Part shown: positions 12,009 to 30,644 of the stretch, piece after piece
How positions within the stretch are numbered: the stretch's first letter is position 1
How the letters are laid out: every line of letters begins with the position of its first letter
NCBI RefSeq assembly: GCF_011764445.1
Contig: NZ_BLPG01000001.1
Coordinates: forward strand, 124,001 to 188,000
Source: Phytohabitans rumicis
GTDB taxonomy: Bacteria; Actinomycetota; Actinomycetes; Mycobacteriales; Micromonosporaceae
Length of the DNA stretch: 64,000 nucleotides
Reading direction: 5' to 3'
Made by a program: the position numbers and the translations under genes
Notes under the pieces: model-generated
Seen by the model: the letters and a program-made list of their open reading frames with translations, nothing else
Databases searched by the model: none
What the model was told of the DNA's origin: nothing

Positions 12009-12478
12009 GCGCGGTGGACGAGGGCGGCCGGGTGGTGTTGCGGGGCAGCGATCCGCTGGAGGTCTGCGAGGAGGTGGTGGCGCGCGGGCTGCATCCGGAG
12101 GGCGTCGACGTGGACACCGGCACCCGCGTACTCCCGCTGGTCCTGGACGACCGGAACCACCTGCTCACCTGGATCCGCCTGTACTCCCGTTGCCTGGCCG
12201 CGCGCAGCCTGCTGCTGGCCGGCGCGGCCGACCGGTGCATGTGGGAGATCGAGGCGGCGCTGATCGCGGCCGCGGACCCACCGTGCTTCCTGGACGAGGT
12301 GTACCTCGCCGAACTGGTCCAGTTGCTCCGCTCGGCGCAGCGGGCGATCCTCGCCGGCGAGACCGACATCGAGCACCACGGACCGTACGTGGCGGTCACC
12401 ATGGCCGAGAACCTGTGCGCCACCCGGATGATCCGCCGCGAGGTCCACCAGGACCGGCGCCAGTACCCACGTACCTAG
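12005..12478 (+). CDS. Unknown protein downstream of the amidohydrolase
   Basis: 157 residues starting at GTG inside the upstream stop (GTGA), so coupled to the amidohydrolase. I do not recognise a family. It is mainly helical: LLTWIRLYSRCLAARSLLLA, CMWEIEAALIAAADPPCFLD, LAELVQLLRSAQRAILAGET. There are four cysteines and no signal peptide or membrane helix. Being translationally linked to the amidohydrolase, it is probably part of the Roadblock-amidohydrolase unit. Its stop overlaps that of the convergent DUF916-like gene in a CTAG. Confidence 0.7.
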   Translation: MSAVDEGGRVVLRGSDPLEVCEEVVARGLHPEGVDVDTGTRVLPLVLDDRNHLLTWIRLYSRCLAARSLLLAGAADRCMWEIEAALIAAADPPCFLDEVYLAELVQLLRSAQRAILAGETDIEHHGPYVAVTMAENLCATRMIRREVHQDRRQYPRT

Positions 12479-12770
12479 TGCGACACCGCCCTAGCGACGG
12501 CCGAGTACCCGCAGGCCCGCGCCCCGCCGAGGAGCGCCACTCCGGCCACGATGATCGCGCCGAACGCGAGGCCCGTCCGCGGCAGGTCGCCACCTCCTCC
12601 CCGCCGTCGGTCGGGCTCGGCGCGGGCGTCGGTGTCGGGGTGACCGGCGTGGACGACGGCGCTATCGAGACCTGGATGTCGATCTGCGCCGGGCTCGGCT
12701 CCAGCGCCGCCGGCCCACCCAACGCGGCCAGCGCCACCACGACCAGCGCGACGCCGCGGGCCGCCGGCAC
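12475..12770 (-). CDS. Possible separate small LPxTG surface protein (frameshifted)
   Basis: After the DUF916 membrane anchor the sequence looks like a new secreted protein. GTG at 12770 would give a signal-like RGVALVVVALAALGGPAAL, a short Ser/Thr/Pro-rich linker, then LPRTG, a hydrophobic span (LAFGAIIVAGVALLGG) and a short tail. Firmicute WxL loci carry exactly such a small LPxTG protein next to DUF916. No stop separates it from the DUF916 reading in the frames I can follow, so a fusion is equally possible. It needs the base missing at 12599-12602. Confidence 0.4.
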
Positions 12771-13768
12771 CGCCGCGGGCAGGTCGTCGAAGCCGGGCTG
12801 CGCGGCCAGCCGGCGGGCCCGCCGGCGCCGCCACCACACCAGCAGGGGTACGGCGAGCGCCGCCAGCAGCACGGCGATGACGAGCCAGGGCAGCGCCCAC
12901 AGGAGCGGGACTCGCTCAGTGACTCCAGCGCCCCCGACTGCGCCGTCGGGTTGACGATGACCTCGGCGCTCAGCCGCCCGGCCGGGAAGACACCGGACAC
13001 CTTCCGGGTCAGCCGGACCTCCGAGTCCGGCAGCAGCTCGGGGATGTCGATCAGTTCGCTGTTGGCCACGCGTACGCCCAGCGGCCCCTTGACGACCACC
13101 CGCGAGGTACCCGAGAAGCGCACGTTGCCGAGGTTCGCGACCCGGTACGTGACGGTCATGTCGCGGCCGCCGAACGGCTGCAGCGGGTTGTCGTACTGGA
13201 CGTCCACGGCGGTGATCTGGGCGACCGGCTGGAGCGGTCCGTCCACCCGCAGGTAGACCCGCGCGGCCACCCGACGCTCCACGTTGACCTGCTGGCCCTC
13301 CGCGTTCGTGGTGGCCTCGGTGGCGGAGGCGATGATGCCGCCGATGTGGTCGCCCGGCTCGGCGTTCGCGGGTACCTTCAGCCGGAACGGGATGTCCACC
13401 CGCTTGCCGACCGGCACGGTGTACTGCTTGACCTGCAACGCGACCCACGAGCCGACGCCCTTCGGCTGCTGGTTGGCCAGCATGAGCGCGAAGCCGCCGT
13501 CCGGGGCGTTCAACGCGTCGGTGGCGTAGATGTCCACCTTCAGCGGCTTCTTGCCCAGGTTGCTCACCGCCACCCAGTCGGCGATCTCCTCGCGCGGCTT
13601 GAGCGTGTACTCGAAGCGGCTGCGCCCGCTGGGTCCGCTGCGGCTGGACGGGACGACGCTCCACTTGAACTCGTCGCCGGGCGCGGCCGCTGACGCCGGC
13701 AGGGCGGGCAGCGCCGCGACCGCCAGAGCCAGGACGGCTAGGAAAAACCCGGGTCGGCCAATTCTCAT
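12475..13768 (-). pseudogene. DUF916/WxL-interacting-like surface protein (two one-base deletions)
   Basis: Start ATG 13768 with GAGGAG seven bases upstream. A signal peptide (FFLAVLALAVAALPALPASA) is followed by about 270 residues resembling the DUF916/DUF3324 WxL-interacting proteins of Firmicutes: FEYTLKPREEIADWVAVSNL, VPANAEPGDHIGGIIAS, VYLRVDGPLQPVAQITAVDV, MTVTYRVANLGNVRFSGTSR. The frame slips at the CCCCC run 12931-12935 (GGGGG on the coding strand), after which LLWALPWLVIAVLLAALAVP is the membrane anchor, ending WWRRRRARR. A second slip at CCCC 12599-12602 precedes the LPRTG tail. Both slips are repaired by one added G. Whether the LPRTG part is a separate small gene is discussed in the next entry. 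Confidence 0.7.
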
Positions 13769-13797
13769 GATGAGGCTCCTCGGAACAGGCATGCGGC

Positions 13798-13831
13798 GGA
13801 GGTGCCGCAGGCTTGCGCCTGCGACACCTCC
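13798..13831. terminator. 15-bp hairpin between the WxL-like and DUF916-like genes
   Basis: Arms 13798-13812 and 13817-13831 pair over 15 positions with one mismatch around a TTGC loop. It lies 55 bases after the stop of the WxL-like gene and 30 bases before the DUF916-like start, so it probably terminates or attenuates transcription between them and may set the ratio of the two proteins. Confidence 0.65.
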
Positions 13832-13885
13832 GCCTGGGTCACCCGTGGCGGGCGCGACCAGCTCGGCGTTCAGAACGACGAAGGG

Positions 13886-15085
13886 TCAGGCCAGCGTCAG
13901 GGTCAGGGTGGCGGCGTACGAACCCGGGTTGGCGGTGTCCGGGATGGCCAGGCTCAGGCCCGCGCCGGCGGTGAAGACGCCCGCGCTGCCGCCCGAAGCC
14001 GCGGAGGCCAGGGTGCGGGGCGCACCCAGGTTCCCCGCGGCACCCGCCGTGACCGTGCCCGAACCGCTGGTCTTCGCCGCGGACGGGGTCCACGTGAGGG
14101 CCGAGTTCGGGATGGTGGTCGTGGCCGGGACCGTGTTGAAGTCCTCCAGCTGGCCGGTCAGGGTCCAGCCGGCGTTGCTGCCGCGCTGGTCCGTGACGGT
14201 GGCCGTCTGCAGGTTGCCCGTCGCCGCGCCGCCGACGACGCCGCCGGTCAGGCTCGTCGTGTTGCCGGCCACCGTCAGGCTGAACGCACCCGGGGTGATG
14301 TCGGCGACGATCTCCTGCTCGGTACCGCCGGGCGGCGGACCCTCCACCGTGACGGACACCGGGCTCGAGGTCGACCCGAGGAAGTCCGCTCCGGTGGCGG
14401 GCGTGAACACCGCGGTCAGCGAGTGCGTACCCGCCGGCAGCGTGGCGGTCAACGTGGCCGTACCGCTGCCGACCGGGGCCGAACCGACCACGGTCGAGCC
14501 ACGCCGGAACTCGACGGTGCCCGTGGCGGTGCCCGGGGACACCGTCGCGGTGAGGGTCACCGTCGCGCCGGACGGAATCGTGCCGGACGGCGAGACGGCG
14601 AGCGTGGTGGTCGTCGCCTCAGGGCCGGAGTCAACGGCCCAGTTGCCGCCGGTGACCTCGATGGGGATCTGGAACTCGTCGGCGTGCCGGCCCAGGGTCA
14701 GGCTGAAGCACTCCACGATGACCCACCACGTGCCGGCAGCCGGCGCGGTGCCGCCCAGCGCGGTGGTGAACGAGCGGTTCGCGCCCACCGAGATGGGAGC
14801 GGTGTCGTACCCGCCGCCGCCCAAGGCCGGGGCGAGGTTGGAGTAAGGCCCGCCCGGCCGGCCGACCCGAAGCGCCGCGTTCTCCCCGTACCCGGTGGGG
14901 CAGGCAGCGGAGGTCGTCGCGTTGGCGAACATCGGCGAACCGGCCACGGTGCCGCTGGTCTGCGACAGCGTGATGGTGCCAAGCGACGCCGCCTGCGCGG
15001 GTGACGCGACGGCGACGAGCACGCCCGCCGACATGACGGCCGCACCAAGCAGCGCGCCCGCGCGAGCGAACATACGCTTGCTCAT
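13886..15085 (-). CDS. WxL-like surface protein with Ig-like domain
   Basis: 399 residues. Signal peptide (about 1-33, GALLGAAVMSAGVLVAVASP). Residues 34-145 form an N-terminal domain shared with two other proteins here (LGTITLSQTSGTV, two cysteines, RVGRPGGPYSN, WWVIVECFS). Residues 155-245 are a group-3 bacterial Ig-like domain (TLAVSPSGTIPSGATVTLTA). The C-terminal 150 residues resemble a WxL domain: DITPGAFSLTV, GWTLTGQLEDF, SALTWTPSA and a final SYAATLTLTLA, where the distal Trp is Leu. WxL domains bind peptidoglycan non-covalently and pair with DUF916 proteins, which is encoded next door. No LPxTG. Confidence 0.75.
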   Translation of the reverse strand: MSKRMFARAGALLGAAVMSAGVLVAVASPAQAASLGTITLSQTSGTVAGSPMFANATTSAACPTGYGENAALRVGRPGGPYSNLAPALGGGGYDTAPISVGANRSFTTALGGTAPAAGTWWVIVECFSLTLGRHADEFQIPIEVTGGNWAVDSGPEATTTTLAVSPSGTIPSGATVTLTATVSPGTATGTVEFRRGSTVVGSAPVGSGTATLTATLPAGTHSLTAVFTPATGADFLGSTSSPVSVTVEGPPPGGTEQEIVADITPGAFSLTVAGNTTSLTGGVVGGAATGNLQTATVTDQRGSNAGWTLTGQLEDFNTVPATTTIPNSALTWTPSAAKTSGSGTVTAGAAGNLGAPRTLASAASGGSAGVFTAGAGLSLAIPDTANPGSYAATLTLTLA

Positions 15086-15125
15086 GAATCACTTCCTCTC
15101 ATTGAGGATGTTGCTCAGGCCAGGT

Positions 15126-15212: not shown

Positions 15213-15245
15213 TTCTCGGTGTCCGCACCTCAGCTCGATGAGGAT

Positions 15246-16088
15246 TCAGCCGAAACGGCCGTGGACGTAGTCGGACGTACGAGGGTCCTGCGGGTGGTCG
15301 AACATCGCCGACGTCGGTCCATGTTCGACGATCACGCCGGGTGTGCCGTGCGAGGCGAGGAAGAACGCGCATTGGTGCGACACGCGGGCCGCCTGCTGCA
15401 TGTTGTGTGTGACGATGACGATGGTGACTTCGTCGGCCAGCTCCCCGATGGTCTCTTCGATGCGCCGCGTCGACGTGGGGTCGAGCGCCGAGCACGGCTC
15501 GTCCATGAGCAGCACCCGCGGGCGTACGGCCAGCGATCGCGCGATGCACAGCCGCTGCTGCTGGCCGCCGGACAGCGCGCCGCCCGGCTGCCGGAGCCGG
15601 TCCCGGACCTCCTTCCAGAGCCCGGCCTTGGTGAGCGTCTCCTCCACCAGGTCGTCGCGCCCGCGCTTGGAGGTCCGGGTGCCGGTGAGCTTGAGACCGG
15701 CCACCACGTTGTCGTAGATGGACATGGCCGGGAACGGGTTCGGCTTCTGGAAGACCATGCCGACCTGCCGGCGGGCGTCGGTGATGCGCCGGTCGGCGGA
15801 GTACAGGTCGCGGCCGTCGAGCAGCACCTCCCCGGCCAGCGACGCGTTGGGCACCAGCTCGTGCATCCGGTTGAGGATGCGCAGGAACGTCGACTTCCCG
15901 CAGCCGGACGGCCCGATCAGCGCGGTCACCTCCCCGGCCGGCATGGTCAGCGACACCCGGTCGAGGACCTTGTGGTCGCCGAACCAGGCCGAGATCGACC
16001 GGGCCTCCAGCGTGGCCAACCCTTCCCGGTTGGTCGCCGCCACGGGGGCCGTCGCGGTCAGCGTCGGGGCTTGCAGCTCGGTCACCAC
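15246..16088 (-). CDS. pstB: Phosphate-type ABC transporter ATPase PstB
   Basis: 280 residues. Walker [10 protein letters not shown] at 59-67, Q-loop in VFQKPNPFP (about 112-120), signature LSGGQQQRL at 172-180, Walker B VLLMDEP at 192-198, followed by [14 protein letters not shown], a PstB hallmark. It would power the PstC/PstA channel encoded at 24.2-26.4 kb, from which it is separated by four surface genes. Two GTG codons (16088, 16085) follow an AAAGGA site. The spacer from the sortase-like gene carries a repeated CTGGACCGTTAC (16099-16110 and 16116-16127). No phoU is in the window. Confidence 0.92.
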
Positions 16089-16123
16089 ACTGTCCTTTCT
16101 GGACCGTTACTACAGCTGGACCG

Positions 16124-17089
16124 TTACAACAGGTTGGGCAGCAGCCGGGCGGCCTGGTCGGCGATGGCGAGCCCGAGCGCGCCCAGCACCGGTGCGCCGA
16201 CGATCCACGCCTGCCAGCCGCCCCACCGGTTCCGGAGGTACGTGACGGCCAGGGTGGCCAGCAGCAGCGCCTGCCCCCAGAGCATCAGCGGCGTCCACGC
16301 CCCCGGGTCAATCGCCATCGCGGCCTCGGCGCCGGGCAGCGAGGCGGCGCCGAACTTGCGCGCCGGGGCCGGCTGTGCGGGCGTGACCAGGTCGGCGTCC
16401 ACCCGCAGCAGGTCCTGCGGGATGAACGGGTCGCCGTCCGCGGTGACCAGCGTGAGCCGCCCCTGGCCGGCCGCGAGCGCCGGTGGCGCCGGGTCGCCCG
16501 GGCGGCGCAACCCGGTGACCCGGTACGTGTGCTCGCCCTGCCCGGTGGTCACGATGACCGCGTCGCCGGGCAACAGCAGGTCGAGGTCCAGGAACGGTCC
16601 GCCGTACGCGGCGCGGCGGCCCATCACGACGCTGGTGCCGGACTGTCCCGGTAGGACGGTGTCGCGGCGGTGCCCGGGCCCGTTGCGCAGCACGTCGCCG
16701 CTCGTGCCCTCGAAGACGACGGTGCGCAGCCCGACGGCCGGGATCCTGAGCACGGCGACCGCCGAGCCGGGATCGACGAGGCGTTCCCGCCCGTTCTCGG
16801 CGCCGTCGGCGTACTCCACCCGCGTCTGCCCGACCGGGGCGGTGCCGCGGGCCAGCTCCGCGCGAAAGTCGGAGAACGCGGTCTGCTGGTTGCGCGCGTA
16901 CTGCAGCTGGGACACCAGGGTCAGGTGGACGACGAAGCCGAGCGTGAGCGCGGCGAGGATGCTCAGCGCGATGCCCGGCACCTGGAGGGCGAGCCGGACC
17001 TGCGGCTGCGGCGCCGGTGCCGGCCGTGGCGGCAACACCGGCGCATCGGGCGGGCTGGCGCCCGGCGGCCGCTCGACGGTGACGGTCAT
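16124..17089 (-). CDS. Sortase-fold membrane protein lacking catalytic residues
   Basis: 321 residues: a proline-rich N-terminus, a transmembrane helix (about 36-58), a class E-like sortase core (about 110-235), then two C-terminal hydrophobic segments (about 265-282, 292-312). Core landmarks are present: VLRIPAVGLRTVVFEGTSGD, GPGHRRDTVLPGQSGTSVVM, GGPFLDLDLLLPGDAVIVTT, HTYRVTGLRR and LTLVTADGDPF. But the catalytic His of GHR is Arg (VMGRRAAYGG) and the TLxTC cysteine is Ala (TLVTADG), so transpeptidation is unlikely. It overlaps the LAxTG Ig gene by four bases. It may be a binding or regulatory sortase relative. Confidence 0.75.
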   Translation of the reverse strand: MTVTVERPPGASPPDAPVLPPRPAPAPQPQVRLALQVPGIALSILAALTLGFVVHLTLVSQLQYARNQQTAFSDFRAELARGTAPVGQTRVEYADGAENGRERLVDPGSAVAVLRIPAVGLRTVVFEGTSGDVLRNGPGHRRDTVLPGQSGTSVVMGRRAAYGGPFLDLDLLLPGDAVIVTTGQGEHTYRVTGLRRPGDPAPPALAAGQGRLTLVTADGDPFIPQDLLRVDADLVTPAQPAPARKFGAASLPGAEAAMAIDPGAWTPLMLWGQALLLATLAVTYLRNRWGGWQAWIVGAPVLGALGLAIADQAARLLPNLL

Positions 17090-18732
17090 GGCTGACCGTC
17101 CGGCCAGTCGACGGGCTCGGGCTCGGGCCGGCGGCGCCGGGTGACGAACAGCGCGCCCGCGCCGAGGCCGACCAGGGCGAGGCCGGAGGCGCCGATGGCG
17201 ATCAGCGGCGTGCCGGTGCTGGCCAGCGACCCGCCGCCGCCGTCGCCGTCGCCATCACCGTCCCCGTCGCCATCACCATCTCCGTCGCCGGCTGTGGTGA
17301 TCTCGTACGTCAACACGGGCGAGGTGGACGCCGCGAAGTCGGCGGGCGTGGTGGGCACGAAGGTCGCGGTGAACGAGTGGTCGCCGGCGGCCAGCGCACT
17401 CGTCGCGTACGTGGCCTTGCCGTCCACCAGTGCGGCCGTGTCCAGCAGCACCGTGCCGTCGCGGAACTCGACGTTTCCGGCGGCTCCGGCCGGCCTCACC
17501 GTCGCGGTCAGCGTCACGTCGGCCCCTTCCTCGGCCGACCCGGTCGGGGCGGCGGCGAGCGCGGTCTGGGTCGTCGCCGGCTCGGGCGCCTCCCCGACCA
17601 CGTAGTTGGGCTGCGCGCCGCTGGACGTCTGGTAGTCGTCGGGCTCCGCCGGCACGAAGGTGGCCTGCAGGTCGTACGCCCCGTCCGGAAGGGTGCCGGC
17701 GGGCAGCGTGTGGGCGGCCTGGCGCCCGGTGAGTGGGACCGTGGTGATGTCCGTGAAGGTCGAGCTGCCGGCGGGCCGCCGCTGGAACGTCACGCTCCCC
17801 GCGGGCTCGGCGGCCTCGTCGCCCTCGACCGCCACGGAGGCGGTCAGCGCGACCGCCGAGCCCGAAGGCGCGGGGCTCGCCGGCGCGACGCCCAGCGTGG
17901 TCTTGGTCTTCTTCGCGCTCCCCGGGACGGACACGACGAGTTCGGTGGGCTCGGCGGTCGTCGAGGGACGGTACGCGCTCTCGTCGCCGGGCATGAAGGT
18001 CGCGGTCAGCTCGATGGTGAGGCTGGTCCGGCCGCCCTCCAGCGTGAACGTCGCCTGGAGGGTGGCGGTGCCGCCGCTCACCGGCGCGGCGCCGATCGCC
18101 GTCGCCGACGTGGTCGTCTCGTCCTCGCGGTAGAACGTCACCGTTCCCCCGGCGGCGGCCGGCGTGACGGTGGCCGTCAGCGTCACCGGCTCGCCCGCCG
18201 GGACGCTGCCGCTGGGCGAGACCGCCAGCGTGGTCTCGGTCTCCGCCGCGGTGCTGCACGAGGTGCCCTGGAACCAGTCCTCGCCGCACACGAAGATCGG
18301 CGTCTGGAACACCTCGGGATGCGGGTCGCCGATCAACGGCCAGCAGTCCGCGGTGATGAACCAGGCGCCGTCGGCCGGGGTGCTGCCCACCGCCGCGGCG
18401 AAGGAGCGGTTCGGCTCGAACTGCACCGGCTTCTGGTCGAGGTCGCCGCCACCGACCGCCGGCGACAGGTTCCGGTACGGCACATCCGGCCGGCCGATCT
18501 TCAGGTTCGAGTTCTCCCCGAAGCCGGCCGGGCAGGCCGCGGACGTCACGGCGCTGATGACCATCGGGCTCTCGGTGACCTTGCCGCTGGTCTTCGCGAG
18601 CGTGACCGTGCCGAGCGCGGCGGCCGCGGGCCCGGCCGAGCCGACGAGCAGTCCGGCCGTCAGCACGCCGCTGGACAGCACGGCGGCCGCCGCCAGGGCG
18701 AGCCAGCGTCGGAGCGTTCGGTGTGCCCTCAT
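17086..18732 (-). CDS. LAxTG-anchored Ig-like repeat surface protein
   Basis: About 548 residues from ATG 18732, chosen for GGAAGGA upstream. Signal peptide (LALAAAAVLSSGVLTAGLLV), the shared N-terminal domain (LGTVTLAKTSGKV, LKIGRPDVPYRNLSPAVGGG, WFITADCWPL), then three group-3 Ig-like domains (TLAVSPSGSVPAGEPVTLTA; TLGVAPASPAPSGSAVALTA; ALAAAPTGSAEEGADVTLTA). A Gly-Asp repeat (codons at about 17230-17285) precedes a sorting signal: LASTG, hydrophobic span LIAIGASGLALVGLGAGALF and a TRRRR tail. It would need an active sortase from elsewhere if covalently attached. Coupled to the sortase-like gene. Confidence 0.82.
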   Translation of the reverse strand: MRAHRTLRRWLALAAAAVLSSGVLTAGLLVGSAGPAAAALGTVTLAKTSGKVTESPMVISAVTSAACPAGFGENSNLKIGRPDVPYRNLSPAVGGGDLDQKPVQFEPNRSFAAAVGSTPADGAWFITADCWPLIGDPHPEVFQTPIFVCGEDWFQGTSCSTAAETETTLAVSPSGSVPAGEPVTLTATVTPAAAGGTVTFYREDETTTSATAIGAAPVSGGTATLQATFTLEGGRTSLTIELTATFMPGDESAYRPSTTAEPTELVVSVPGSAKKTKTTLGVAPASPAPSGSAVALTASVAVEGDEAAEPAGSVTFQRRPAGSSTFTDITTVPLTGRQAAHTLPAGTLPDGAYDLQATFVPAEPDDYQTSSGAQPNYVVGEAPEPATTQTALAAAPTGSAEEGADVTLTATVRPAGAAGNVEFRDGTVLLDTAALVDGKATYATSALAAGDHSFTATFVPTTPADFAASTSPVLTYEITTAGDGDGDGDGDGDGDGDGGGGSLASTGTPLIAIGASGLALVGLGAGALFVTRRRRPEPEPVDWPDGQP

Positions 18733-18758
18733 GTCACGCGTCCTTCCGTTCACACGGG

Positions 18759-18791: not shown

Positions 18792-18813
18792 GGGGTAACG
18801 CCTGAGCCCTCGG

Positions 18814-19959
18814 TCAGGTGTTGAACCGCAGGTCGGTGTAGCCGCAGGCGGCGTCGAGCGGTGACACCTGGGTGGTGCGCCGGCCGAAGCCGAACAGCTC
18901 GATCACGTTGTAGGTGGTGCCGCCGTCGGTGACGGTGGCGGTGCAGACGTCCGAGTCGGCGCCGGTGAAGGTGTCGTCGATCTCGGCGTTGCTCAGGTCC
19001 GCGGTCGGCACGACGTTGTAGACGTCCCGGCGCAGGGTGTAGTTGGTGTTGACCACCAGGGTGGTGCGGTTGAAGGGCTGCTCGGCCGAGCTGAGGCCGG
19101 TCAGGTACGCGTCACCGCGCCGGTCGGTCACGGTCACGCCGGTCGCCCCGGCGATCGTGGCGGCCCGGCTCTGCGCGATGAACTGGGCGGCCGAGAACGG
19201 CACCACCTGGGTGAGGTTGCCGTTCAGGATCGTGCCGTCGTGCTCCTGCACGCGCGGGTGCACCGGGGTCACCGGGCTGCCCGTGGCGAGGCAGGCGTAG
19301 TCGCCAAGGGCGATCTCGGCCTCGGTCATCTGCATCCGCTGCAGCCAGAACTGCCAGGTGCCCGAGTCGGCCTGGATCATTCGCGGCGTCACCGGGTTGC
19401 CGGCGATGTTGTTGGTGAAGCACTTGTAGACCCGCTGCACCTGCGCGAAGGAGACGTTGTTCGGCAGGTCGCCGTTGACGTTCTTCGCCAGCGTCATCGC
19501 GTCCACGCCGAACGGGATGTAGGTGAGCGTCCCGGTGCTCGACGGCGTCGTGCCGCCGCCGTAGCTGGACGACCGCGCGAAGTCCGCGCAGCCGACCACG
19601 TTGGCGCCGAGGTAGAAGCCCGCACCGCCGTGCGTGCCGCCCAGGTTCTCACCCTCCGAGGCCCGCAGCGCCTGCCGGCCGGCCCCCGAACCGTTCGGCC
19701 GGGTGAACGTGCAGCCGGTCGCCTTGGTCTTGATGGTGCTGGTGCCGCGCGCGTCCCACGAGGCGATCACCCCGGCGCCTTCGACCGCGGCGCCCAGCCC
19801 GTTCACGGCGTCCTGGGTGGTGTCCGAGCCGACGCCGGTCAGGATCCGGTAGTCCGTGGGCGACGGCGGGTCAGCGACAGCCGGGGTGGCCGCCATCGCC
19901 ACGGCGAGGACGGCGGTAAAGCCGACCACCACCGCGTTGCCGATGGTCTTGACCTTCAT
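18814..19959 (-). CDS. Secreted PstS-like substrate-binding protein
   Basis: 381 residues with a signal peptide (about 1-29, VVVGFTAVLAVAMAATPAVA) and a PBP-like fold: YRILTGVGSDTTQDAVNGLG near the N-terminus, GSGAGRQALRASEGENLGG, CADFARSSS, LTYIPFGVDAMTLAKNVNGD and NNVSFAQVQRVYKCFTNN. The order matches PstS-type binding proteins. It has no lipobox or membrane anchor, so it should be released or held by other surface proteins. A short CTTTCT-purine ribosome site precedes ATG 19959; a GTTCATCC core lies about 90 bases upstream on the coding strand. Confidence 0.75.
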   Translation of the reverse strand: MKVKTIGNAVVVGFTAVLAVAMAATPAVADPPSPTDYRILTGVGSDTTQDAVNGLGAAVEGAGVIASWDARGTSTIKTKATGCTFTRPNGSGAGRQALRASEGENLGGTHGGAGFYLGANVVGCADFARSSSYGGGTTPSSTGTLTYIPFGVDAMTLAKNVNGDLPNNVSFAQVQRVYKCFTNNIAGNPVTPRMIQADSGTWQFWLQRMQMTEAEIALGDYACLATGSPVTPVHPRVQEHDGTILNGNLTQVVPFSAAQFIAQSRAATIAGATGVTVTDRRGDAYLTGLSSAEQPFNRTTLVVNTNYTLRRDVYNVVPTADLSNAEIDDTFTGADSDVCTATVTDGGTTYNVIELFGFGRRTTQVSPLDAACGYTDLRFNT

Positions 19960-20054: not shown

Positions 20055-22610
20055 TCATTGTCGGTTTGCCCTACGCGTACGGGTCGCCAGCCGCTGCATG
20101 ATCGGCCCGGCCACCCCGCCGAGCAGGCCCATGACGAGCGCCACCACGAGCAGGAAGCGGATCATCCCCAGTGGACTGCCGAGCGTCGACTGGGCCACCG
20201 GGGCGACGGTGGGTCGCGTGGTGGGCGCGCTGAGCCCCGGCGACGGCGCGAGTCCGCTCGCCGGCACGCTCGCGGGTGGTGTGGTGGGGCTCTGCGAAAC
20301 GCTGTCCGTCTGCGGTGGCGTGGTCGGCGCGACCCAGTTCTGGAGCTTGTCCGCCGCGCTCATCGTCTGCTCGCGCAGGGCCGCCGTCAGCGGGGCGTAC
20401 CCCTCGGGAAGCTGGCCGTCGGCGGGTCCCGGCTGCTGGCCCGTGCCCGCGGAGTAACGCAGCAGCGCGGCGTAGTCGCGGCGGGCGTCCGCCGGCTCGC
20501 TGGTGTCCGCGACCGCGTACGTGATGGTGGTCAGCGGGTACGCCCCGGCGGTCGTCCAAGCCTTGGCCGGGTCGATGGTGCTGACGCCGGTGACCTGGCT
20601 CGGCACCGCGGCGGCGAGCGCGGCCGTCATCGCGTCGGCGGTGGGGGCCCGGCAGTCGGTCGCGGTGAACTTCCCGTCCGTGCCCCGGCCGGCCTTGCAG
20701 AGCTTGGCGGTGTACAGCCCGTACCGGGCCGCCGAGGCGGAGTCCGTGATGGACAGTGCGAACCGGTACCCCGGACTCTGCCGCGCGATCGTGTCGAACC
20801 TCGGCAGGTTCGGGTCGAAGCTCGAGTTGCCCTCGGTGTTGGTCGTCATCTGGTTGCTGCTGGCCTTGGGATCGGCGCGCAGGGTCTGCAGCGCCGTCTC
20901 GCCGAGGCCGCCCAGGTACGGCCGGTAGCTGAACGTGCAGTTGAGGACCTGGTCGTACTCGGGCACGTCGCCCCGGGCGCAGCTGGGGTCCAGCTTCGGG
21001 TAGGTGTCCAGTGTGGTCAGAGACAGTCCCTTGTAGACCGGGTTGACCACCATGCCGCTCTCGTCGGGGGTGCCCGACAGCCACGCCTTGGCCGCCGGGT
21101 CCGCGGCGATCCAGCGCCACACCTCGCGCGCCGCGACCGAGCTGCCGACCGTGACCATGAGCCCGTTGAGGGTGTGGCTCTCGATGGACGACCAGCTCTC
21201 GAACATCGGGTTGAGGTCGAGGAACTCGCGGTCGAACCGGAGCGAGTGCGGGTTGCTCGCCAGCGGCGGGTACGGGTCGCCCGCGCCGATGGCGACGTCG
21301 TACTTGTACGAGAAGGTCAGCAACTTGGCGACCAGCCGCGGGGTGAGCTTGAGGTCGCTGAGCGCCAGCCCGCGCTGCGCGTTGATCTCGGGCGGGAGCA
21401 CCACCTCGTTCGGATCCTTGAGGTTGGCGTCGATGTTGAGCGCGATGACCGGCCCGCTCAGCGCGACCGGGGCGTGCACCACCGCCGGTTCGGACGCCAG
21501 GGTGACCACCGGATCGGCCGTGAAGCCGAGGCCCGGTGCACCGCTGGAAGAGGAGACGACCTGCCGCCCGACCTCGAAGTCGCTGACGGCGGCGTACCCG
21601 TAGACCGGCCCGTCGCCGGCGCACAGCGCCGGTTGCCAGGAGGTGATCGCCTCGGCCATCAGCTCGGTACCGGTGGTGCGGCGCTCCGCCTTGGTAAGCG
21701 AGCACGCGCCGGCGACCGGGTCGAACAGCAGCGGCACGACGATCCGGTTCTTCCACAGCGCCGGGCGGAACGGGCTGCCGTGCACCGTGGTCGCCGCCGT
21801 GCCGTCGTACGGGTTCGTGTGCCCGCGCGGCACGATGACCAGCGAGCACTTCGGCGCCGGCTGGGTCTGGTTGTTCTCGTCGGTGTACGGGGCGCCGCAG
21901 CTCAGGTGCGGGGCGAGCGAGGCGTTCTGCATCTCGAACACGACCCGGCCGGCGCCGGCGCCGGTGCTGAGCGCGAACGGCACCTCGTTGGTCGACGCCG
22001 GCGTGAAGTGCGTCGCCAGCACCTGCACGTCGGTCATCTCCAGCTCGCGGTGCGGCGGCGCCGGCTCCCGGTACGTCGGGAACGGGTGCTGCGGACTCCC
22101 GTCCGCCGTGGCCGTGCCGCCGGCCGGCCGGAAGGGGACGATCGTCGCCTCACCGAGCGCCGCGTCGGCCGGATCGGTCACCGGGTACCCCTCGCCCTGG
22201 AACTTCCTGCCCCGGCTGGCGGCGTCGACGCTGACCGCGCCGTTCGCACCCGTGACCGGGGCCAGCAGGCGGGTGCCGAACTGGCAGGTCTCGCGCAGCT
22301 TCAGCCCGTCGGGGTCGGCGGGGTCGTTCGGGTCACCCCAGCACTGCATGATCTGCAGGTAGTCGGTGCCGAGCAGGCGGTCCCGCGGGGTCGGCGTGGC
22401 ACCCGTCCAGGTGATCTCTACCGCCTGGTTGCCGAGGCCGGTGGTCTGCGAGACCGTCACCTCAAGGCCCGCGAACTCGCCCTCGGTGACGCTGACCGTC
22501 GTGCCCGCGTTGCTGGCGTCGCCGCGCGCCGGCTCCGCCGCCGGGCGTACCACGAAGAGCCCGCCCGCGGCGAGCAGCGCCACCAGGAACGCCGCGACCC
22601 TCGACCGCAT
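20055..22610 (-). CDS. Very large membrane-anchored PstS-like protein
   Basis: 851 residues. Signal peptide (VAAFLVALLAAGGLFVVRPA), an N-terminal beta-rich region (VSVTEGEFAGLEVTVSQTTG, YLQIMQCWGDPNDPADPDGL), then PstS-like elements in the middle (YGYAAVSDFEVGRQV, LTPRLVAKLLTFSYKYDVAI, VNPVYKGLSLTTLDTYPKL, QSPGYRFALSITDSASAARY). A Pro/Thr/Ser linker (about 765-810) leads to a C-terminal transmembrane helix (FLLVVALVMGLLGGVAG) and a basic tail. It starts inside the pstS stop (TGATG). It is more than twice the usual PstS size and likely has a role beyond simple solute capture. Confidence 0.75.
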   Translation of the reverse strand: MRSRVAAFLVALLAAGGLFVVRPAAEPARGDASNAGTTVSVTEGEFAGLEVTVSQTTGLGNQAVEITWTGATPTPRDRLLGTDYLQIMQCWGDPNDPADPDGLKLRETCQFGTRLLAPVTGANGAVSVDAASRGRKFQGEGYPVTDPADAALGEATIVPFRPAGGTATADGSPQHPFPTYREPAPPHRELEMTDVQVLATHFTPASTNEVPFALSTGAGAGRVVFEMQNASLAPHLSCGAPYTDENNQTQPAPKCSLVIVPRGHTNPYDGTAATTVHGSPFRPALWKNRIVVPLLFDPVAGACSLTKAERRTTGTELMAEAITSWQPALCAGDGPVYGYAAVSDFEVGRQVVSSSSGAPGLGFTADPVVTLASEPAVVHAPVALSGPVIALNIDANLKDPNEVVLPPEINAQRGLALSDLKLTPRLVAKLLTFSYKYDVAIGAGDPYPPLASNPHSLRFDREFLDLNPMFESWSSIESHTLNGLMVTVGSSVAAREVWRWIAADPAAKAWLSGTPDESGMVVNPVYKGLSLTTLDTYPKLDPSCARGDVPEYDQVLNCTFSYRPYLGGLGETALQTLRADPKASSNQMTTNTEGNSSFDPNLPRFDTIARQSPGYRFALSITDSASAARYGLYTAKLCKAGRGTDGKFTATDCRAPTADAMTAALAAAVPSQVTGVSTIDPAKAWTTAGAYPLTTITYAVADTSEPADARRDYAALLRYSAGTGQQPGPADGQLPEGYAPLTAALREQTMSAADKLQNWVAPTTPPQTDSVSQSPTTPPASVPASGLAPSPGLSAPTTRPTVAPVAQSTLGSPLGMIRFLLVVALVMGLLGGVAGPIMQRLATRTRRANRQ

Positions 22611-24226
22611 CAGGACCGCCCCCGCTGGTCGCCGTCCCGGCGGCCGCGCAGCGCGTGCGCCAGGAACGGCGGCCCGAGCACCAGTCCGACGAAGAGCAGG
22701 GCGGCGAGCAGCATCATCGTGTGCCGCAGCTTCCACCCGCCCTCGCCGTCCAGGGACACCGGCACGGCCGCCACCTGCTCGCCGTCGGCAACGCCGCCGC
22801 CGTCGCCGGCCGGCAGGCCGGTGTCCGGGTCGATCGCCCCGGCCGAGGCGGTGGGGTTGGCGCTCGCCGAGGGGCCGGTGGTCGCCCCGCCGGTGGTGCT
22901 GGTGCCGCCGCTGCCGGCGCACCGGGCGGCCGCGACGACCGGGGTGTCCTGCCGCGCCCCGCCGGTGCCGGCCGGGTTCTGCCGCGACCCCTTCTTGTCG
23001 CATTCGGACGGTTGGGCCGCGTTGCGGGCCAGGGTGTTCGTGCCGTCCGGGGAGAACGTCGGGTTGTTGCAGCCGGCGATGTTGATGTCCTTGGTCGGGG
23101 CGCCGGGAATCTTCTTCACCTGCTCCATCCCGGCCTTCACCAGGTTGATCGGCAGCGGCGAGTAGCCGAGCACGTCGGCCTGCTGCTGCCCCTCGCACAG
23201 GAAGTAGTACGCGAACGAGCTGAGCGTGTACCCCTTGTTCTCGTCGACGCCCAGCTCGACCTTGTGCGGGATCAGCATGTACGAGTACGACGAGAGCGGG
23301 TACGTGCGCTTGTCGCTGGACCGGTAGACGTCGTCGAGGATCTGGGTCAGGTAGTCGGCGCTGCTCTTGTTCTCGTTGATCCGGGCCTTGGTCAGCGCGA
23401 CGGCCACATTGGACGCCGTCGGCTCGGTGTAGTAGCCGGCCTGGTTTAGCAGCTTCACCACCGGGAAGCGGGCGTTGATGGCGTACGAGTACTCGACGTA
23501 GGTGATCGCGCCCTCGGCGTTGTCCTGCGCCACGTACCCGGACACGCCGGTCGAGCCGCTCTGCCCGATGAAGCCGTCGCTGGCCCGGAACGGGTAGTTC
23601 GACGTGAGCCCGCACGGGGCCGGCTTGCCGAACTTCTTGCAGTACGCGTTCCAGATCGACGGGTACTGCTTGCTCATCCACAGCGTGAACTGGGCGCTGG
23701 TGCCGGAGCCGTCCTGGCGTACCACCGGCCGGATGGCGCGGGCCGGCAGGTTGATGCCCGGGTTGTCGGCCTTGATCTCACCGTCGTTCCAGCGCTTGAT
23801 CTCACCGGTGAAGATCTTCGCGACGACCTCGCCGGACAGCCGCAGGTTGGTGACCCGCCGCCCACCGATCTTCAGGTTGTACATGAAGGACGTGCCACCG
23901 GCGACGATCGGCATGTACGCGAAGCCACGGTTCGGCCGGGTGTCCACTCCCCCGAACGCGTCCTTGAGCCCGTAAGGGATCTCCGACACTCCAAAGTCGA
24001 CGGTGCCGCTGCGGAACTGGGCCCGGCCGTCGCTGGAACCGGTCGACGCGTAGTTGACGAAGATGCCGCGCTGCTGCACGTTGCGCCGCCAGTTGTCGAT
24101 GGCGTTGGCGCTCCACGTCGACCCGGCGCCGTTGATCTGCACCAACTTCGGGGCGGCCGCGGCCGGGGGCGCCGCCCCGACGAGCACCGCGACCGCGGCG
24201 ACCGCGCACACCAGCCTTCTTTTCAT
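22610..24226 (-). CDS. pstS: Phosphate-binding protein PstS, membrane-anchored
   Basis: 538 residues. Signal peptide (VCAVAAVAVLVGAAPPAAAA), then a clear PstS fold: INGAGSTWSANAIDNWRRNV, VNYASTGSSDGRAQF, VDFGVSEIPYG, VAKIFTGEIKRWNDGEI and VVRQDGSGTSAQFTLWMS, giving the phosphate-loop serines and the RQDGSGT motif. After residue 400 a Gly/Thr/Ser linker leads to a C-terminal helix (LLAALLFVGLVLGPPFLAHA) and basic tail; ordinary actinobacterial PstS are lipoproteins without this extension. It overlaps pstA by four bases and the large protein by one. Confidence 0.9.
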   Translation of the reverse strand: MKRRLVCAVAAVAVLVGAAPPAAAAPKLVQINGAGSTWSANAIDNWRRNVQQRGIFVNYASTGSSDGRAQFRSGTVDFGVSEIPYGLKDAFGGVDTRPNRGFAYMPIVAGGTSFMYNLKIGGRRVTNLRLSGEVVAKIFTGEIKRWNDGEIKADNPGINLPARAIRPVVRQDGSGTSAQFTLWMSKQYPSIWNAYCKKFGKPAPCGLTSNYPFRASDGFIGQSGSTGVSGYVAQDNAEGAITYVEYSYAINARFPVVKLLNQAGYYTEPTASNVAVALTKARINENKSSADYLTQILDDVYRSSDKRTYPLSSYSYMLIPHKVELGVDENKGYTLSSFAYYFLCEGQQQADVLGYSPLPINLVKAGMEQVKKIPGAPTKDINIAGCNNPTFSPDGTNTLARNAAQPSECDKKGSRQNPAGTGGARQDTPVVAAARCAGSGGTSTTGGATTGPSASANPTASAGAIDPDTGLPAGDGGGVADGEQVAAVPVSLDGEGGWKLRHTMMLLAALLFVGLVLGPPFLAHALRGRRDGDQRGRS

Positions 24227-25428
24227 GACCTCACCTTGTCGGTATCCGCCGGAACCGGGCCGCGCGCCCTTTCCCGCGCGGCGAAGCGCACCGCGTCCCG
24301 CCGGGACGCGCGGGCCCGGCGCCGCCGCTGGCCCCGGCCGAGCTGCCCCGGCGCCCGGCCGCCCACCAACCGGGCCAGCGCGAACAGGAACAGCACCAGG
24401 ACCATCAGCACGGCCGCCGCGCCGAAGGCGCGGGCGATCAGCCCCGGCTCACCGGTCCGCACCATCTGGAACGTGTAGAGCGGCAGCGAGGTCTGCGCGC
24501 CCGAGGTCGGGTCGGCGTTCAGCGTCTGCGCGAACCCGGCGGTCAGCAGCACGGGCGAGGTCTCGCCGATGCCGCGCGCGGTGCCAAGGATCACCGCGGT
24601 GGTGATGCCGGACCGGGCGGTGGGCAGCACCACGTGCCAGATCGTCCGCCACTGGGACGCGCCCAGCGCCAGCGCCGCCTCGCGCAGCGTGCCGGGCACC
24701 AGCCGGATCACCACGTCGGCGGCCCGGATGATGATGGGCAGCATCATCACGCTCAGCGCCAGCCCGGCCGCCAGGCCCGACTTCTGCATGCCGAGGCCGA
24801 GAATCACCATCGCGAAGATGAACAGTCCGGCCACGATGGACGGCAGCGCGGTCATCGCCTCGACGATGATGCGGACGAACCGGCTGAACGGGCCCGGCAC
24901 CTCGCTGAGGAACACCGCGCCGATGATGCCCAGCGGGATGGTGATGGTCAGCGCGATGCCGATCTGCTCCAGGGTGCCGACGATCGCGTGCTTGACCCCG
25001 CCGACGCTCAGCGGCTGCAGCGGGCCCGCCAGGCCCATGTCCTGGTAGTAGAAGTTGAGGTGCGCCAGCGCCGAGCGGCCGCGGAAGAACGTGTACCCCA
25101 CGACCACGACCAGGCCGATCAGCATCACGAACGCGAGGCTGTGGATCAGCGCCGCGGCGAGCCGGTCGCGCACCGCCGGTCCGGACTCGTCGAGCGAGAC
25201 CAGCAGCGTGTAGATGCCGAGGAACGCCACATAGGACACCACGAGGAAGCCGAGCAGGGCGTCGAACGGGGCCAGCTGGGTGAAGACGACCGACGCGAGC
25301 GCGACGGCGGACGCGGCCGCGCCCAGGACCGCGAAGACGTCGGTGCGGCGGGTGTTCGAGGTGCCGCGCCGCGCCTCCGGTTCCCCGGTGTCCGGCGGCG
25401 TCCTGGGCAGCGTCGTCGTGGAAGTCAT
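24223..25428 (-). CDS. pstA: Phosphate ABC transporter permease PstA
   Basis: 401 residues from ATG 25428, which overlaps the pstC stop (TGATG). Two N-terminal hydrophobic segments are followed by the permease core: LEQIGIALTITIPLGIIGAV, VEAMTALPSIVAGLFIFAMV and the EAA loop region LREAALALGASQWRTIWHVV, LPTARSGITTAVILGTARGI, GETSPVLLTAG. The EAALALGA-GETSPVLLT pair is typical of PstA. The basic C-terminus (LGRGQRRRRARASRRD) is longer than usual. It forms the inner-membrane channel with PstC. Confidence 0.92.
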   Translation of the reverse strand: MTSTTTLPRTPPDTGEPEARRGTSNTRRTDVFAVLGAAASAVALASVVFTQLAPFDALLGFLVVSYVAFLGIYTLLVSLDESGPAVRDRLAAALIHSLAFVMLIGLVVVVGYTFFRGRSALAHLNFYYQDMGLAGPLQPLSVGGVKHAIVGTLEQIGIALTITIPLGIIGAVFLSEVPGPFSRFVRIIVEAMTALPSIVAGLFIFAMVILGLGMQKSGLAAGLALSVMMLPIIIRAADVVIRLVPGTLREAALALGASQWRTIWHVVLPTARSGITTAVILGTARGIGETSPVLLTAGFAQTLNADPTSGAQTSLPLYTFQMVRTGEPGLIARAFGAAAVLMVLVLFLFALARLVGGRAPGQLGRGQRRRRARASRRDAVRFAARERARGPVPADTDKVRS

Positions 25429-26438
25429 CACGCCTCGCTCGTGGCGCCGGACCGGCTGCGGCTGATGATGATTCCGGCCGCGAAGTTGACGATCAGCGTC
25501 ATGGCGAAGAGCACCAGGCCGGCGGCCATCAGCGCGGCCAGCGCGACGCCGCTGTCGTCGGAGTATCGCAGCGCGATCAGGGCGGCGATCGACCCGCCGC
25601 CGGTCTGCAGGATGTGCGGCTGGATCACGAAGACCATGGAAATGACCAGGAAGACCCCGATCGTCTCGCCGAGCGCGCGGCCGAGCCCGAGCATGGTGCC
25701 GCCGATCATCCCGCCGCGCCCGAACGGCAGCACGACCGCGCGGATCATCCCCCACTTGGTGGCGCCCAGGGCGTACGCGCCCTCCCGCTCGCCGAGCGGC
25801 GCCTGGGAGAAGACCTCCCGCATCACCGACGCGATGATGGGCGTGACCATCATCGAGACGATGATGCCGGCCACGAAGCTGGACGAGGTGAGCGCGGTCG
25901 GGCTCGCCGCCGGGTCCCGCGGGTCGTATCCGTCCACTTCGAACAGTGGAATCCAGCCGAGGTACGTGGTGAGCCAGCGGGGCAGTCCGTCGCCCTGGTC
26001 ACCCCGTACCAGGATGTGCGGTTGCAGCAGGAAGAAGCCCCAGATGCCGTACACCACGCTGGGCACCGCGGCCATCAGGTCGACCATGTTGACCAGCACC
26101 GGCTGGATCCGGCCCGGCGCGTACTCGGAGATGTAGAGGGCCGCGCCGGTGGCCAGCGGCACCGCGATGCTGATCGCGACGAGCGCGATGAGCACCGTGC
26201 CGACGAGCACCCCGGCGACGCCGAAGTCGAGTTGGGCCGGCACCCAGTTCTGCGTGGTGAGGAAGTCGAAGCCGACCGCGCGTACGGCCGGCACCGCGCG
26301 CACGCTCAGGAAGATCCCGACCAGCAGCATCACCGCCAGCACCACGGTGCCGCCGGCCCGGGCGACGCCCCGGAAGACCACGTCCGAGGGCGCGCGCCGC
26401 AGCCGGATCCGGCGCGGCGCGTCCACTGCTTCCGCCAT
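25428..26438 (-). CDS. pstC: Phosphate ABC transporter permease PstC
   Basis: 336 residues from ATG 26438, inside the upstream stop (TGATG). Six hydrophobic segments and PstC landmarks: TTQNWVPAQLDFGVAGVLVG, PLATGAALYISEYAPG, LMAAVPSVVYGIWGFFLLQP, MREVFSQAPLGEREGAYALG, ATKWGMIRAVVLPFGRGG and LGRALGETIGVFLVI. Partner of PstA in the same coupled operon. Confidence 0.93.
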   Translation of the reverse strand: MAEAVDAPRRIRLRRAPSDVVFRGVARAGGTVVLAVMLLVGIFLSVRAVPAVRAVGFDFLTTQNWVPAQLDFGVAGVLVGTVLIALVAISIAVPLATGAALYISEYAPGRIQPVLVNMVDLMAAVPSVVYGIWGFFLLQPHILVRGDQGDGLPRWLTTYLGWIPLFEVDGYDPRDPAASPTALTSSSFVAGIIVSMMVTPIIASVMREVFSQAPLGEREGAYALGATKWGMIRAVVLPFGRGGMIGGTMLGLGRALGETIGVFLVISMVFVIQPHILQTGGGSIAALIALRYSDDSGVALAALMAAGLVLFAMTLIVNFAAGIIISRSRSGATSEA

Positions 26439-26878
26439 CAGCCCGCGTTCCGCAGCTCTCGCCTCGGCGGCGCCTCGGTGACGCTGGCCCGCCGCCGTCC
26501 ACGCCGGACACTCCGGGTGCCGGCGACGACCTGGGCTTCCGGCACCGCCTCCAGGAAGCGCTCCAGGTTGTACGTGCACTCCCGGGACCGCAGGTACGAC
26601 CGGCTGGAGACGGCCACCGGCTCGCCGTCCAGGTCCATCCGCCAGGTCCACTGACCGGTCATCTCGACCGTCGACTCGACCGGCTTGGCCCGCTCATAGT
26701 TCGCCTTCAGGTCCAGGACGGCCTGCCGGCAGGAGCCGTACGTCTCGTGGTAGCTGGTGCCGCGACCAAGTGGGCGGTTGTTCGGCGAGACGAGCATCCA
26801 GAGGATGCCATCGGCCTCGTCCCCGTCCTTCGACTCGGGCATCGGCGCGGCAAGAAACACGAACCGTGAATGCTGCAC
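26438..26878 (-). CDS. DUF1508-like small protein heading the pst operon
   Basis: 146 residues from GTG 26878 (a 157-residue form from 26911 is also open); AAGGGA lies about nine bases before the GTG. It resembles DUF1508/YegP-like domains: RFVFLAAPMPES, DGILWMLVSPNNRPLGRGTS, YGSCRQAVLDLKANYERAK and WTWRMDLDGEPVAVSSRSYL. The tail is basic (RSVRRGRRR). No signal peptide, so cytoplasmic. TGATG coupling to pstC suggests a regulatory or accessory role in this transporter; such a partner is not standard in pst operons. Confidence 0.72.
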   Translation of the reverse strand: MQHSRFVFLAAPMPESKDGDEADGILWMLVSPNNRPLGRGTSYHETYGSCRQAVLDLKANYERAKPVESTVEMTGQWTWRMDLDGEPVAVSSRSYLRSRECTYNLERFLEAVPEAQVVAGTRSVRRGRRRASVTEAPPRRELRNAG

Positions 26879-26971
26879 CTCTGGTCCCTTCCCCAGTGCC
26901 GCGCTCCCCAAATGCGCGGACGGAGATCAGCCTCGTGACGGACGATGACTGAGCGCGCAGGCTCATGCTCA

Positions 26972-26993
26972 CGCCGGACATGCGGAAGGTGAA
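26972..26993. promoter_or_regulatory. Motif shared by the pst operon and the WxL-like gene
   Basis: Twenty of 22 bases match 15191-15212 in the same orientation relative to the downstream genes, each about 95-106 bases before a start codon. On the coding strand it reads TTCACCTTCCGCATGTCCG. The GTTCACC start resembles one PhoP (PHO-box) half unit of streptomycetes, but the second 11-base unit does not match, so a PhoP site is not established. Confidence 0.4.
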
Positions 26994-27031
26994 CAGCGAG
27001 TAATGAAGCATCCACCGTTCGGGTACATCGT

Positions 27032-27745
27032 CTAGCCGGACCGGCGCCGGCGGGTCAGCAGCATGATCCCGCCGACGACCGCCAGCACCGCGACGACGCC
27101 GGCGACCCAGGCCACGCTCGCCAGCGGGGAACCGGATCCGGTCCGGTCGTTGCTGGCCAGCAGCGGCGTCGGGCCCGGCGTACCGGCGACGGTCGGCGCG
27201 GGCGTGGTGGCCGGTGCCCCCGTCGGGGACGCCGTCGCTCCGGCGGTGGGGACCGCCGGCCGCGGCGGCGGAGGCGAGTCGAGGTCGGCCGCGCCGCTGG
27301 CCGGCTGCCCGACCTTCCAGGTCCGGCCGGTCACCGTGACCGGCGTGACGAAGCGGTCGGCGTGCTGCCCCAGGTCCTGGCTGAAGCACTCCACGACGAC
27401 CCACCACTCGCCGTCGGTGGGCGCCCCGGCGAGCGCCGTGGCGAACGAGCGGTTCGGCCGCACGGTCACGGCCTTCCTGTCGTAGCCGCCGCTCATCAGC
27501 GGTTTGGCCACATTGGAGTACGGACCGCCGGGTGGGCCGATCCGGACCAGCGCGTCGCTGCCGTACCCGGACGGGCAGGGCTTGGACGCCGTCGCGGTGC
27601 CGAAGATCGGGGTGGCGTCGACGGTGCCGCTGCTCTGCGACAGCTTGACGGTGCCCAGCGGGGCGGCTGCCGCGGGTGCCGGCAGGAGCAGGGGCGCCGT
27701 GGTGGCCGCGACGAGGACGGCGAGGGCGATCCGGATTTGCTTCAC
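27032..27745 (-). CDS. Membrane-anchored protein with the shared surface N-terminal domain
   Basis: About 237 residues from GTG 27745. Signal peptide (IALAVLVAATTAPLLLPAPA), then the ~115-residue domain shared with the two Ig proteins: LGTVKLSQSSGTVDATPIFG, CPSGYGSDALVRIGPPGGPY, VTVRPNRSFATALAG, WWVVVECFSQDLGQHADRFV. A Pro/Thr/Ala linker leads to a C-terminal helix (VAWVAGVVAVLAVVGGIMLL) and TRRRR tail; there is no LPxTG. It is closest to the WxL-like protein. Expected to be displayed on the outer face of the membrane. Confidence 0.78.
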   Translation of the reverse strand: MKQIRIALAVLVAATTAPLLLPAPAAAAPLGTVKLSQSSGTVDATPIFGTATASKPCPSGYGSDALVRIGPPGGPYSNVAKPLMSGGYDRKAVTVRPNRSFATALAGAPTDGEWWVVVECFSQDLGQHADRFVTPVTVTGRTWKVGQPASGAADLDSPPPPRPAVPTAGATASPTGAPATTPAPTVAGTPGPTPLLASNDRTGSGSPLASVAWVAGVVAVLAVVGGIMLLTRRRRSG

Positions 27746-30610: not shown

Positions 30611-30644
30611 GATCCCCACGATGCCAGGTGCCCGGTGGCGGGAC

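Follow-up and report, generated by a model that had tools for sequence, protein, structure and literature searches.

To our knowledge, it is understood for few nutrients only how a substrate passes the thick Gram-positive wall to reach its importer; a mechanism to which the present case can be likened is the Isd haem relay of staphylococci, which leads from wall to membrane. In this study, a 64-kb stretch (64,000 nucleotides of contig NZ_BLPG01000001.1) of the 10.7 Mb genome of Phytohabitans rumicis was analysed; this whole stretch is referred to as the window. It carries an ordered gene set on the minus strand, running from 27784 down to 12475, in which a Pst-type ATP-binding cassette (ABC) importer with its binding protein PstS1 is accompanied by two further PstS-fold proteins (PstS2 and an 851-amino-acid (aa) protein, the giant), surface proteins and a sortase-fold protein predicted to be catalytically dead (the pseudosortase). 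Its core comprises the importer, the PstS-fold proteins, three in number, and the pseudosortase, with WxL and WxLIP proteins as optional members.

The PstSCAB importer of Escherichia coli and mycobacteria has in common with the locus the permease pair, the ATPase and the phosphate-binding protein, which reach or almost reach the cut-offs of the same family models. The locus differs from it in a separate PstB clade, a PstS1 tethered by a transmembrane (TM) segment, the two more PstS-fold proteins, the pseudosortase and the surface proteins. A precedent is provided by ZnuAECB with ZnuF/ZnuG of Corynebacterium diphtheriae, an ABC transporter for zinc whose wall-located proteins have a motif in common, one of them with a sortase signal (PMC12445094; statements on cited sources refer to the parts of their text that were available). 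That importer, however, belongs to the zinc family, and PstS folds, pseudosortases and WxL domains are unmentioned in those parts. The class E sortase SrtE1 of Streptomyces coelicolor, with His251 and Cys320 in its active site (PMC5148588), shares the sortase domain with the pseudosortase, in which counterparts of both residues are missing (judged via alignment with the SrtE of P. rumicis itself) and an extra C-terminal hydrophobic region is present.

More than 91% of WxL sequences are found in Firmicutes (PMC9772566). The domain is defined by an Asp-x-Arg-Gly motif followed by two Trp-x-Leu motifs, in a source whose available parts contain no ABC transporter wording (PMC1534035). WxLIP has been proposed to bind WxL on peptidoglycan, and a WxL cluster is defined as one WxLIP gene with at least two WxL genes (PMC10599100). 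The locus falls outside this definition, the window WxL protein being the only WxL match in its whole genome. It resembles the WxL/Csc clusters of Firmicutes in that WxL and WxLIP occur together in 27 of the 29 WxL-bearing long loci (defined below), 20 of which also encode LPxTG-type partners (by a pattern of our own). It differs in being placed within an ABC importer, in the single WxL protein of the window, in the DUF3324 domain, which was not found, and in a second motif of the form W-x-P. No description of pseudosortases, or of loci joining Pst with sortase or WxL genes, was found in the open-licence literature searched, where some queries were narrow and required all or nearly all terms; an initial annotation of the window, made from its letters alone, had likewise known of no described system of such composition.

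All genes named in that annotation are present on the minus strand at about the positions it gave. In gene order, the locus consists of:

27032..27784, minus strand: N1, secreted protein with an N-domain of ~115 aa and a C-terminal TM segment (from sequence), lacking an intact LPxTG motif
26438..26911, minus strand: DUF1508-like small protein, the head gene, with a one-base overlap with pstC
25428..26438, minus strand: PstC-type permease (TIGR02138, 235.5 bits, cut-off 196.45)
24223..25428, minus strand: PstA-type permease with a basic C-terminal extension (TIGR00974, 213.8 bits, cut-off 193.45)
22610..24226, minus strand: PstS1, with a C-terminal TM segment (from sequence) and the phosphate signature kept (TIGR00975, 209 bits, cut-off 205)
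20055..22610, minus strand: giant, 851 aa, with an N-terminal beta part, a PstS fold and a C-terminal TM helix (AlphaFold, Foldseek)
18814..19959, minus strand: PstS2, secreted PstS-like protein (its family profile matches phosphate-binding-type proteins)
17086..18753, minus strand: LAxTG protein with the N-domain, three Big_3_5 immunoglobulin (Ig) repeats and a LASTG sorting signal (Pfam)
16124..17089, minus strand: putative pseudosortase, whose sortase-type domain lacks the catalytic His and Cys (Pfam Sortase, E 2.5e-15)
15246..16088, minus strand: PstB-type ATPase of a separate clade (TIGR00972, 338.5 vs 343.2 bits; tree)
13886..15085, minus strand: WxL protein with the N-domain, an Ig domain and a C-terminal WxL-like domain (Pfam WxL, E 8.9e-5; Big_3_5, E 4.6e-16)
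12475..13792, minus strand: WxLIP (DUF916 domain; WxLIP_PGBD, E 9e-7), frame broken, with an LPRTG tail in another frame

Overlaps of 1 or 4 bases connect the DUF1508-like gene, pstC, pstA and the PstS1 gene each with the start of the gene that follows, so that the five genes from DUF1508-like through giant are probably co-translated.

Conservation of this gene unit was followed with the 851-aa giant protein as bait, which was matched in 16 of 61 genomes, the own genome included. In 20 neighbourhoods from 15 of these genomes, searched with the window proteins (tblastn), the sortase-like protein, PstS1 and the giant were each found in 20, PstC and PstB in 19 (locus L051 is truncated at a contig end), PstS2 in 17 and WxLIP in 15; alignments A1 and A2 used 16 of these 20 loci, and 53 of 81 giant proteins went into the model of that protein. 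A scan of 84,980 representative genomes yielded 312 stretches encoding a giant relative. The locus counts given here refer to the best 80 of these 312, all of them with Actinomycetota named in their titles, and the counts for long loci refer to the 60 that measure at least 19.5 kb, the 20 shorter ones having been dropped. The titled loci (L056-L135) and the earlier set (L036-L055) share some genomes (e.g. L057/L038 and L060/L040) and are not independent.

PstC, PstS1, giant, PstS2, the sortase-like protein and PstB are encoded in all 60 long loci and PstA in 59. The optional genes are WxL (29/60), WxLIP (27/60) and DUF1508 (28/60), and WxL or WxLIP may have been missed where a locus stops shortly after PstB (e.g. 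L081 and L101). Among the 59 loci holding all seven core genes, PstC, PstA, PstS1 and giant follow one another in this order on one strand in every case, PstS2, the sortase-like gene and PstB come next in 56, and the midpoints of the pseudosortase and PstB genes lie less than 2.5 kb apart in all 59. A chance neighbourhood was rejected, gene set and order being kept across relatives. Judged by sequence, the importer core, the three PstS-fold proteins and the sortase-type membrane protein lacking catalytic His and Cys thus form one conserved gene unit. The pst and surface genes are therefore neighbours in relatives and not in this strain only.

In a spread sample of the class, the giant was matched with more than 300 bits in 24 of 118 genomes, again with the own genome included; the weak matches, most of which fall on profile positions 580-815, probably represent ordinary PstS or PstS1. 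Outside the class, three loci of the phylum were found to retain the sortase-like gene together with PstC, PstA, PstB and PstS-type proteins, in a different order in two of them. In L144 and L145, both from other classes, the sortase-like gene adjoins the start of pstC and a Ser stands at the expected Cys place (motif reading). Some genomes contain two divergent copies of the system (L038 and L047, L040 and L050, L037 and L045). A contig titled Bifidobacterium breve, from a metagenome-assembled genome (L080), encodes giant, PstS2, WxL and WxLIP and is perhaps mis-binned.

The importer is predicted to be a second Pst-type importer, whose PstB belongs to a clade apart from canonical PstB. PstC, PstA and PstS1 exceed their NCBIfam equivalog cut-offs, and PstB falls below its own. 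PstC aligned with E. coli PstC (9k3x_B) at E 6.7e-48, the alignments of PstC and PstA with their E. coli counterparts cover the RALGET and AR..GET segments, and a basic C-terminal extension like that of the window PstA occurs in several relatives. A separate pst locus is located at 4.87 Mb of the same genome, its pstC spread over several frames. A PstB above the curated cut-off was found in 24 of 26 genomes, including all 11 with a second, lower-scoring PstB; the 15 PstB matches in the window or relative loci score 330.3-342.2 bits, all below the cut-off, and the 24 others lie above it. In a tree of 57 PstB proteins, one branch with 100% support in the Shimodaira-Hasegawa-like approximate likelihood-ratio test (SH-aLRT) splits 24 canonical from 33 locus rows.

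The locus 'sortase', as it had been named, does have a sortase-type domain (Pfam Sortase, 56.8 bits against a cut-off of 26.6), but the protein is better described as a putative pseudoenzyme without catalytic His or Cys. Profile searches group it with sortases of class E and related ones: structures matched by its family profile include 5uus, 5go6, 5go5 and SrtE1 (5cuw), and the score for the class E model NF033747 stays under the cut-off (81 bits, cut-off 160). The place of the catalytic His is taken by Arg in 69 of 69 alignment rows (Arg 19 and Lys 2 in a further set of 21) and that of the Cys by Ala in 64, Gly in 3 and Thr in 2 (Ala 18, Ser 2 and Val 1 in the further set). Compared with the SrtE of the same genome, the pseudosortase has MGRR against AGHR and VTA against TTC; no Arg is in line with the catalytic Arg of this SrtE, and an Arg two residues on is present in 60 of 69 rows. 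Hydrophobic stretches lie at both ends of the protein, and the C-terminal one has a kept ending, LLPNLL (as in the window), LLPNLM or alike. In the deep relative L145, AGRRTTYGAPF and LTTSNPEY were found by motif search, not alignment, and the class E model scores 120.7 bits; these residues and this score suggest descent from a class E sortase. A phylum-wide search with the sortase profile gave mostly partial matches, probably ordinary sortases, and of the 100 only the near-full-length G000, G149, G076 and G061 were taken as kin. A protein with a sorting signal (by our pattern) is encoded nearby in 20 of the 29 WxL loci, in 2 of 27 loci with a tailed PstS2 and in 3 of 4 with neither. Since the sortase-like gene is kept in 60 of 60 loci although few tailed loci show such a protein, it is hardly kept only for anchoring these substrates.

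Among the PstS-fold proteins, PstS1 has a family profile that matches PstS 8ods (E 1.6e-45), R-x-D-G-S-G-T/S is kept, and the phosphate signature, whose residues presumably have the roles we assign to them, shows Arg in 76, Asp in 74, Ser in 77 and Gly in 78 of 78 rows. The place of Asp56, set by alignment to E. coli PstS (1ixh), is held by Asp or Glu in 77 of 77. The family profile of PstS2 matches phosphate-binding-type proteins (best 1twy, E 7e-6) and scores 82.5% against PstS1 in a profile-profile comparison. The PstS2 pocket is strongly kept (Arg87, Gly94 and Arg129 each in 76 of 76 rows, Gly200 in 77 of 77) and unlike that of PstS1, with RPNGSGAG and FARSS.

The giant had been called PstS-like, and its PstS fold was recovered by Foldseek. 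The AlphaFold model (predicted local distance difference test (pLDDT) 85.2, predicted template modelling score (pTM) 0.84) gave a PstS match at E 3.2e-10, the solved structures matched at E<=0.001, 29 in number, all belong to phosphate-binding proteins of PstS/DING type, and the profile-profile comparison with PstS1 scores 98.9%. The phosphate signature is lost, according to residue counts in the alignment. At the C-terminus, a linker is followed by a short segment, then by a TM helix and a basic tail; cell-wall sorting signals have this layout, but the motif for cleavage is missing here. The consensus of the segment is T-P-x-x-P-x-G-x-x-R (in the window T-L-G-S-P-L-G-M-I-R); in 79 rows, Thr occurs in 76, the first Pro in 59, the second Pro in 52, Gly in 42 and Arg in 69. 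The modelled giant is apparently a PstS fold turned scaffold.

Profile searches, which had been proposed as a check of the domain calls, placed DUF916 and, just below the cut-off, WxL, but not DUF3324. The DUF916 call corresponds to WxLIP_PGBD (29.4 bits vs 27.3). DUF3324 had no Pfam match in the window or in 2 of 2 relatives scanned. The protein had been described as a DUF916 protein with an LPxTG tail; both parts are present, but they are encoded in different frames. WxLIP is one frame of 466-470 aa in L036-L038, and that of L040 is itself broken; broken frames also occur in the genus-mates L038 and L040, so that a sequencing error is possible. The window WxL protein remains just below the Pfam cut-off (23.0 bits, cut-off 25), while 9 of 12 members of its family match Pfam WxL at E<=0.01 (best 1.3e-6). 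The first motif, D-Q-R-G followed by W-T-L, is present; the second reads W-T-P. In the relative L038, two WxL-type matches were found. A fold search with the WxL protein gave generic Ig-like matches from a modest model (pLDDT 78.9, pTM 0.44). The LAxTG protein matches Pfam Big_3_5 in three stretches (E 5.9e-28). N1, the LAxTG protein and the WxL protein have the N-domain in common, which occurs in three places in the genome, all in the locus. N1 itself has no Pfam match, and its homologues stand at the same place in the close relatives L036-L040. As for the 'DUF1508-like' head gene, the window protein has no Pfam DUF1508 match, but 2 of 4 relatives scanned exceed the cut-off.

Loci without WxL mostly encode a different form of PstS2. 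A PstS2 tail of at least 150 aa was found in 27 of the 31 WxL-less long loci, and 4 of 5 such tailed proteins scanned contain Big_3_5 Ig repeats; such a fusion joins to PstS2 the type of Ig repeat that the window encodes in separate genes. Among the 60 long loci, WxL without tail occurs in 28, tail without WxL in 27, neither in 4 and both in one (L133, perhaps an edge effect), giving a Fisher p of 9e-12 with kinship ignored. On a tree of PstC, PstB and PstS1, in which the window groups with Phytohabitans, the tail requires 3 changes and WxL 4.

The reading we favour, held with about even confidence, is that the locus encodes a second, dedicated Pst-type importer with an extracellular capture apparatus in the wall. 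PstS2 would be placed in the wall by its own Ig tail or by a scaffold of Ig, WxL, WxLIP and LAxTG proteins, would capture phosphate or a phosphorylated solute and would hand it to the membrane-tethered PstS1, which would dock on PstC/PstA for import driven by the ATPase. The giant and the pseudosortase would serve as a non-enzymatic scaffold that keeps PstS1, together with the wall components, close to the permease. Such capture, hand-over and scaffolding may occur; support comes from the conservation of the pockets, the membrane tether of PstS1, the PstS2 fusions and the Znu precedent. The idea of a surface complex tied to a dedicated Pst importer, already put forward in the initial annotation, gains from the kept gene order, the PstB clade and the Ig tails of PstS2, but its WxL-type label is too narrow. 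Several points weigh against this reading. The WxLIP frame of the window is broken. The exclusion between WxL and tail is not significant on the tree, with 2 independent pairs on supported branches and 3 on all; because independent changes are few, it is taken as a pattern only. The ligand is a presumed one, and the Asp56 place of PstS1 is Glu in 53 of 77. Membership in the Pho regulon via GTTCACC repeats was not upheld: PHO-box-like repeats show a slight excess only, with a mean of 10.00/14 upstream of PstC (9.25 shuffled; at least 12 in 5 of 73) and 9.64 upstream of PstS2 (9.15 shuffled; at least 12 in 6 of 72). Finally, we infer substrate, mechanism and contact between the proteins from the sequences.

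It is doubtful whether import is real but directed, rather than at free phosphate, at a solute that is phosphorylated or bears another oxyanion (a phosphonate, a phosphate ester or a fragment of a wall polymer). It would suit the canonical PstB of another clade in the same genomes, the frequent Glu at the Asp56 place and the PstS2 pocket unlike that of PstS1, but PstS1 exceeds the phosphate-binding equivalog cut-off and keeps R-x-D-G-S-G-T/S. It is unlikely that import is a side role of the Pst-type core and that this core acts mainly as an ATP-driven sensor or assembly motor for the surface complex, with structural PstS folds and the pseudosortase as chaperone. One of the three PstS-fold proteins without ligand signature, the lack of a clear PHO-box signal and the catalytically depleted sortase-type domain, encoded in 60 of 60 long loci, are in its favour, yet a non-transporting module would not need the strongly kept PstS1 and PstS2 pockets or permeases aligning well with E. 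coli PstC/PstA. Two merely neighbouring systems, an ordinary duplicate Pst operon beside an unrelated WxL/LPxTG adhesion cluster, are very improbable: 31 of the 60 long loci did indeed give no WxL match, but PstS2, giant and pseudosortase are in all of them, surface genes stand between the pst genes in the window, PstS2 has Ig tails elsewhere, and the N-domain and WxL are matched nowhere else in the genome. Scarcely credible is the view that the pseudosortase is active and uses an unusual residue for catalysis, for which the invariant Arg at the His place in 69 of 69 rows and a well-kept surrounding site could be cited; the nucleophile place is without Cys in every row, the genome encodes elsewhere a class E sortase that has both His and Cys, and the gene is kept in all 27 WxL-less tailed loci although only 2 show a sorting-signal protein (by our pattern).

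Two neighbouring regions were rejected as parts of the system, since tblastn did not find them in any of the 20 relative loci examined first. A DUF3152 protein gene (27830-28768, minus strand; E 6.2e-37), which carries the metallopeptidase-like motif HEVGHELGFAHE, adjoins the locus, and response regulator and histidine kinase genes (28842-30764, minus strand), a two-component pair, lie directly upstream on the same strand. Elsewhere in the window, an adjoining pair of ABC ATPase-domain proteins (45130-48848, minus strand) is perhaps a heterodimeric exporter, and an amidohydrolase-like frame at 11107 (plus strand) seems to switch character midway.

Within the favoured reading of a dedicated importer with a capture apparatus, the pseudosortase may be a dedicated ABC transporter subunit that binds the uncleavable sorting-signal-like tail without cutting it, a tentative proposal that we consider possible but doubtful. 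If true, PstS-fold proteins would be retained at the permease by a dead sortase and not be sent to the wall; the sortase fold would then have a new function, and the wall-spanning importer would be of a new type. The locus is a conserved, multi-part candidate for substrate passage across the wall, spread over many soil actinobacteria besides their ordinary phosphate importer. With it come a putative family of pseudosortases, a PstS fold that apparently became a scaffold and, outside Firmicutes, a WxL complex for which a role in nutrient supply is plausible.

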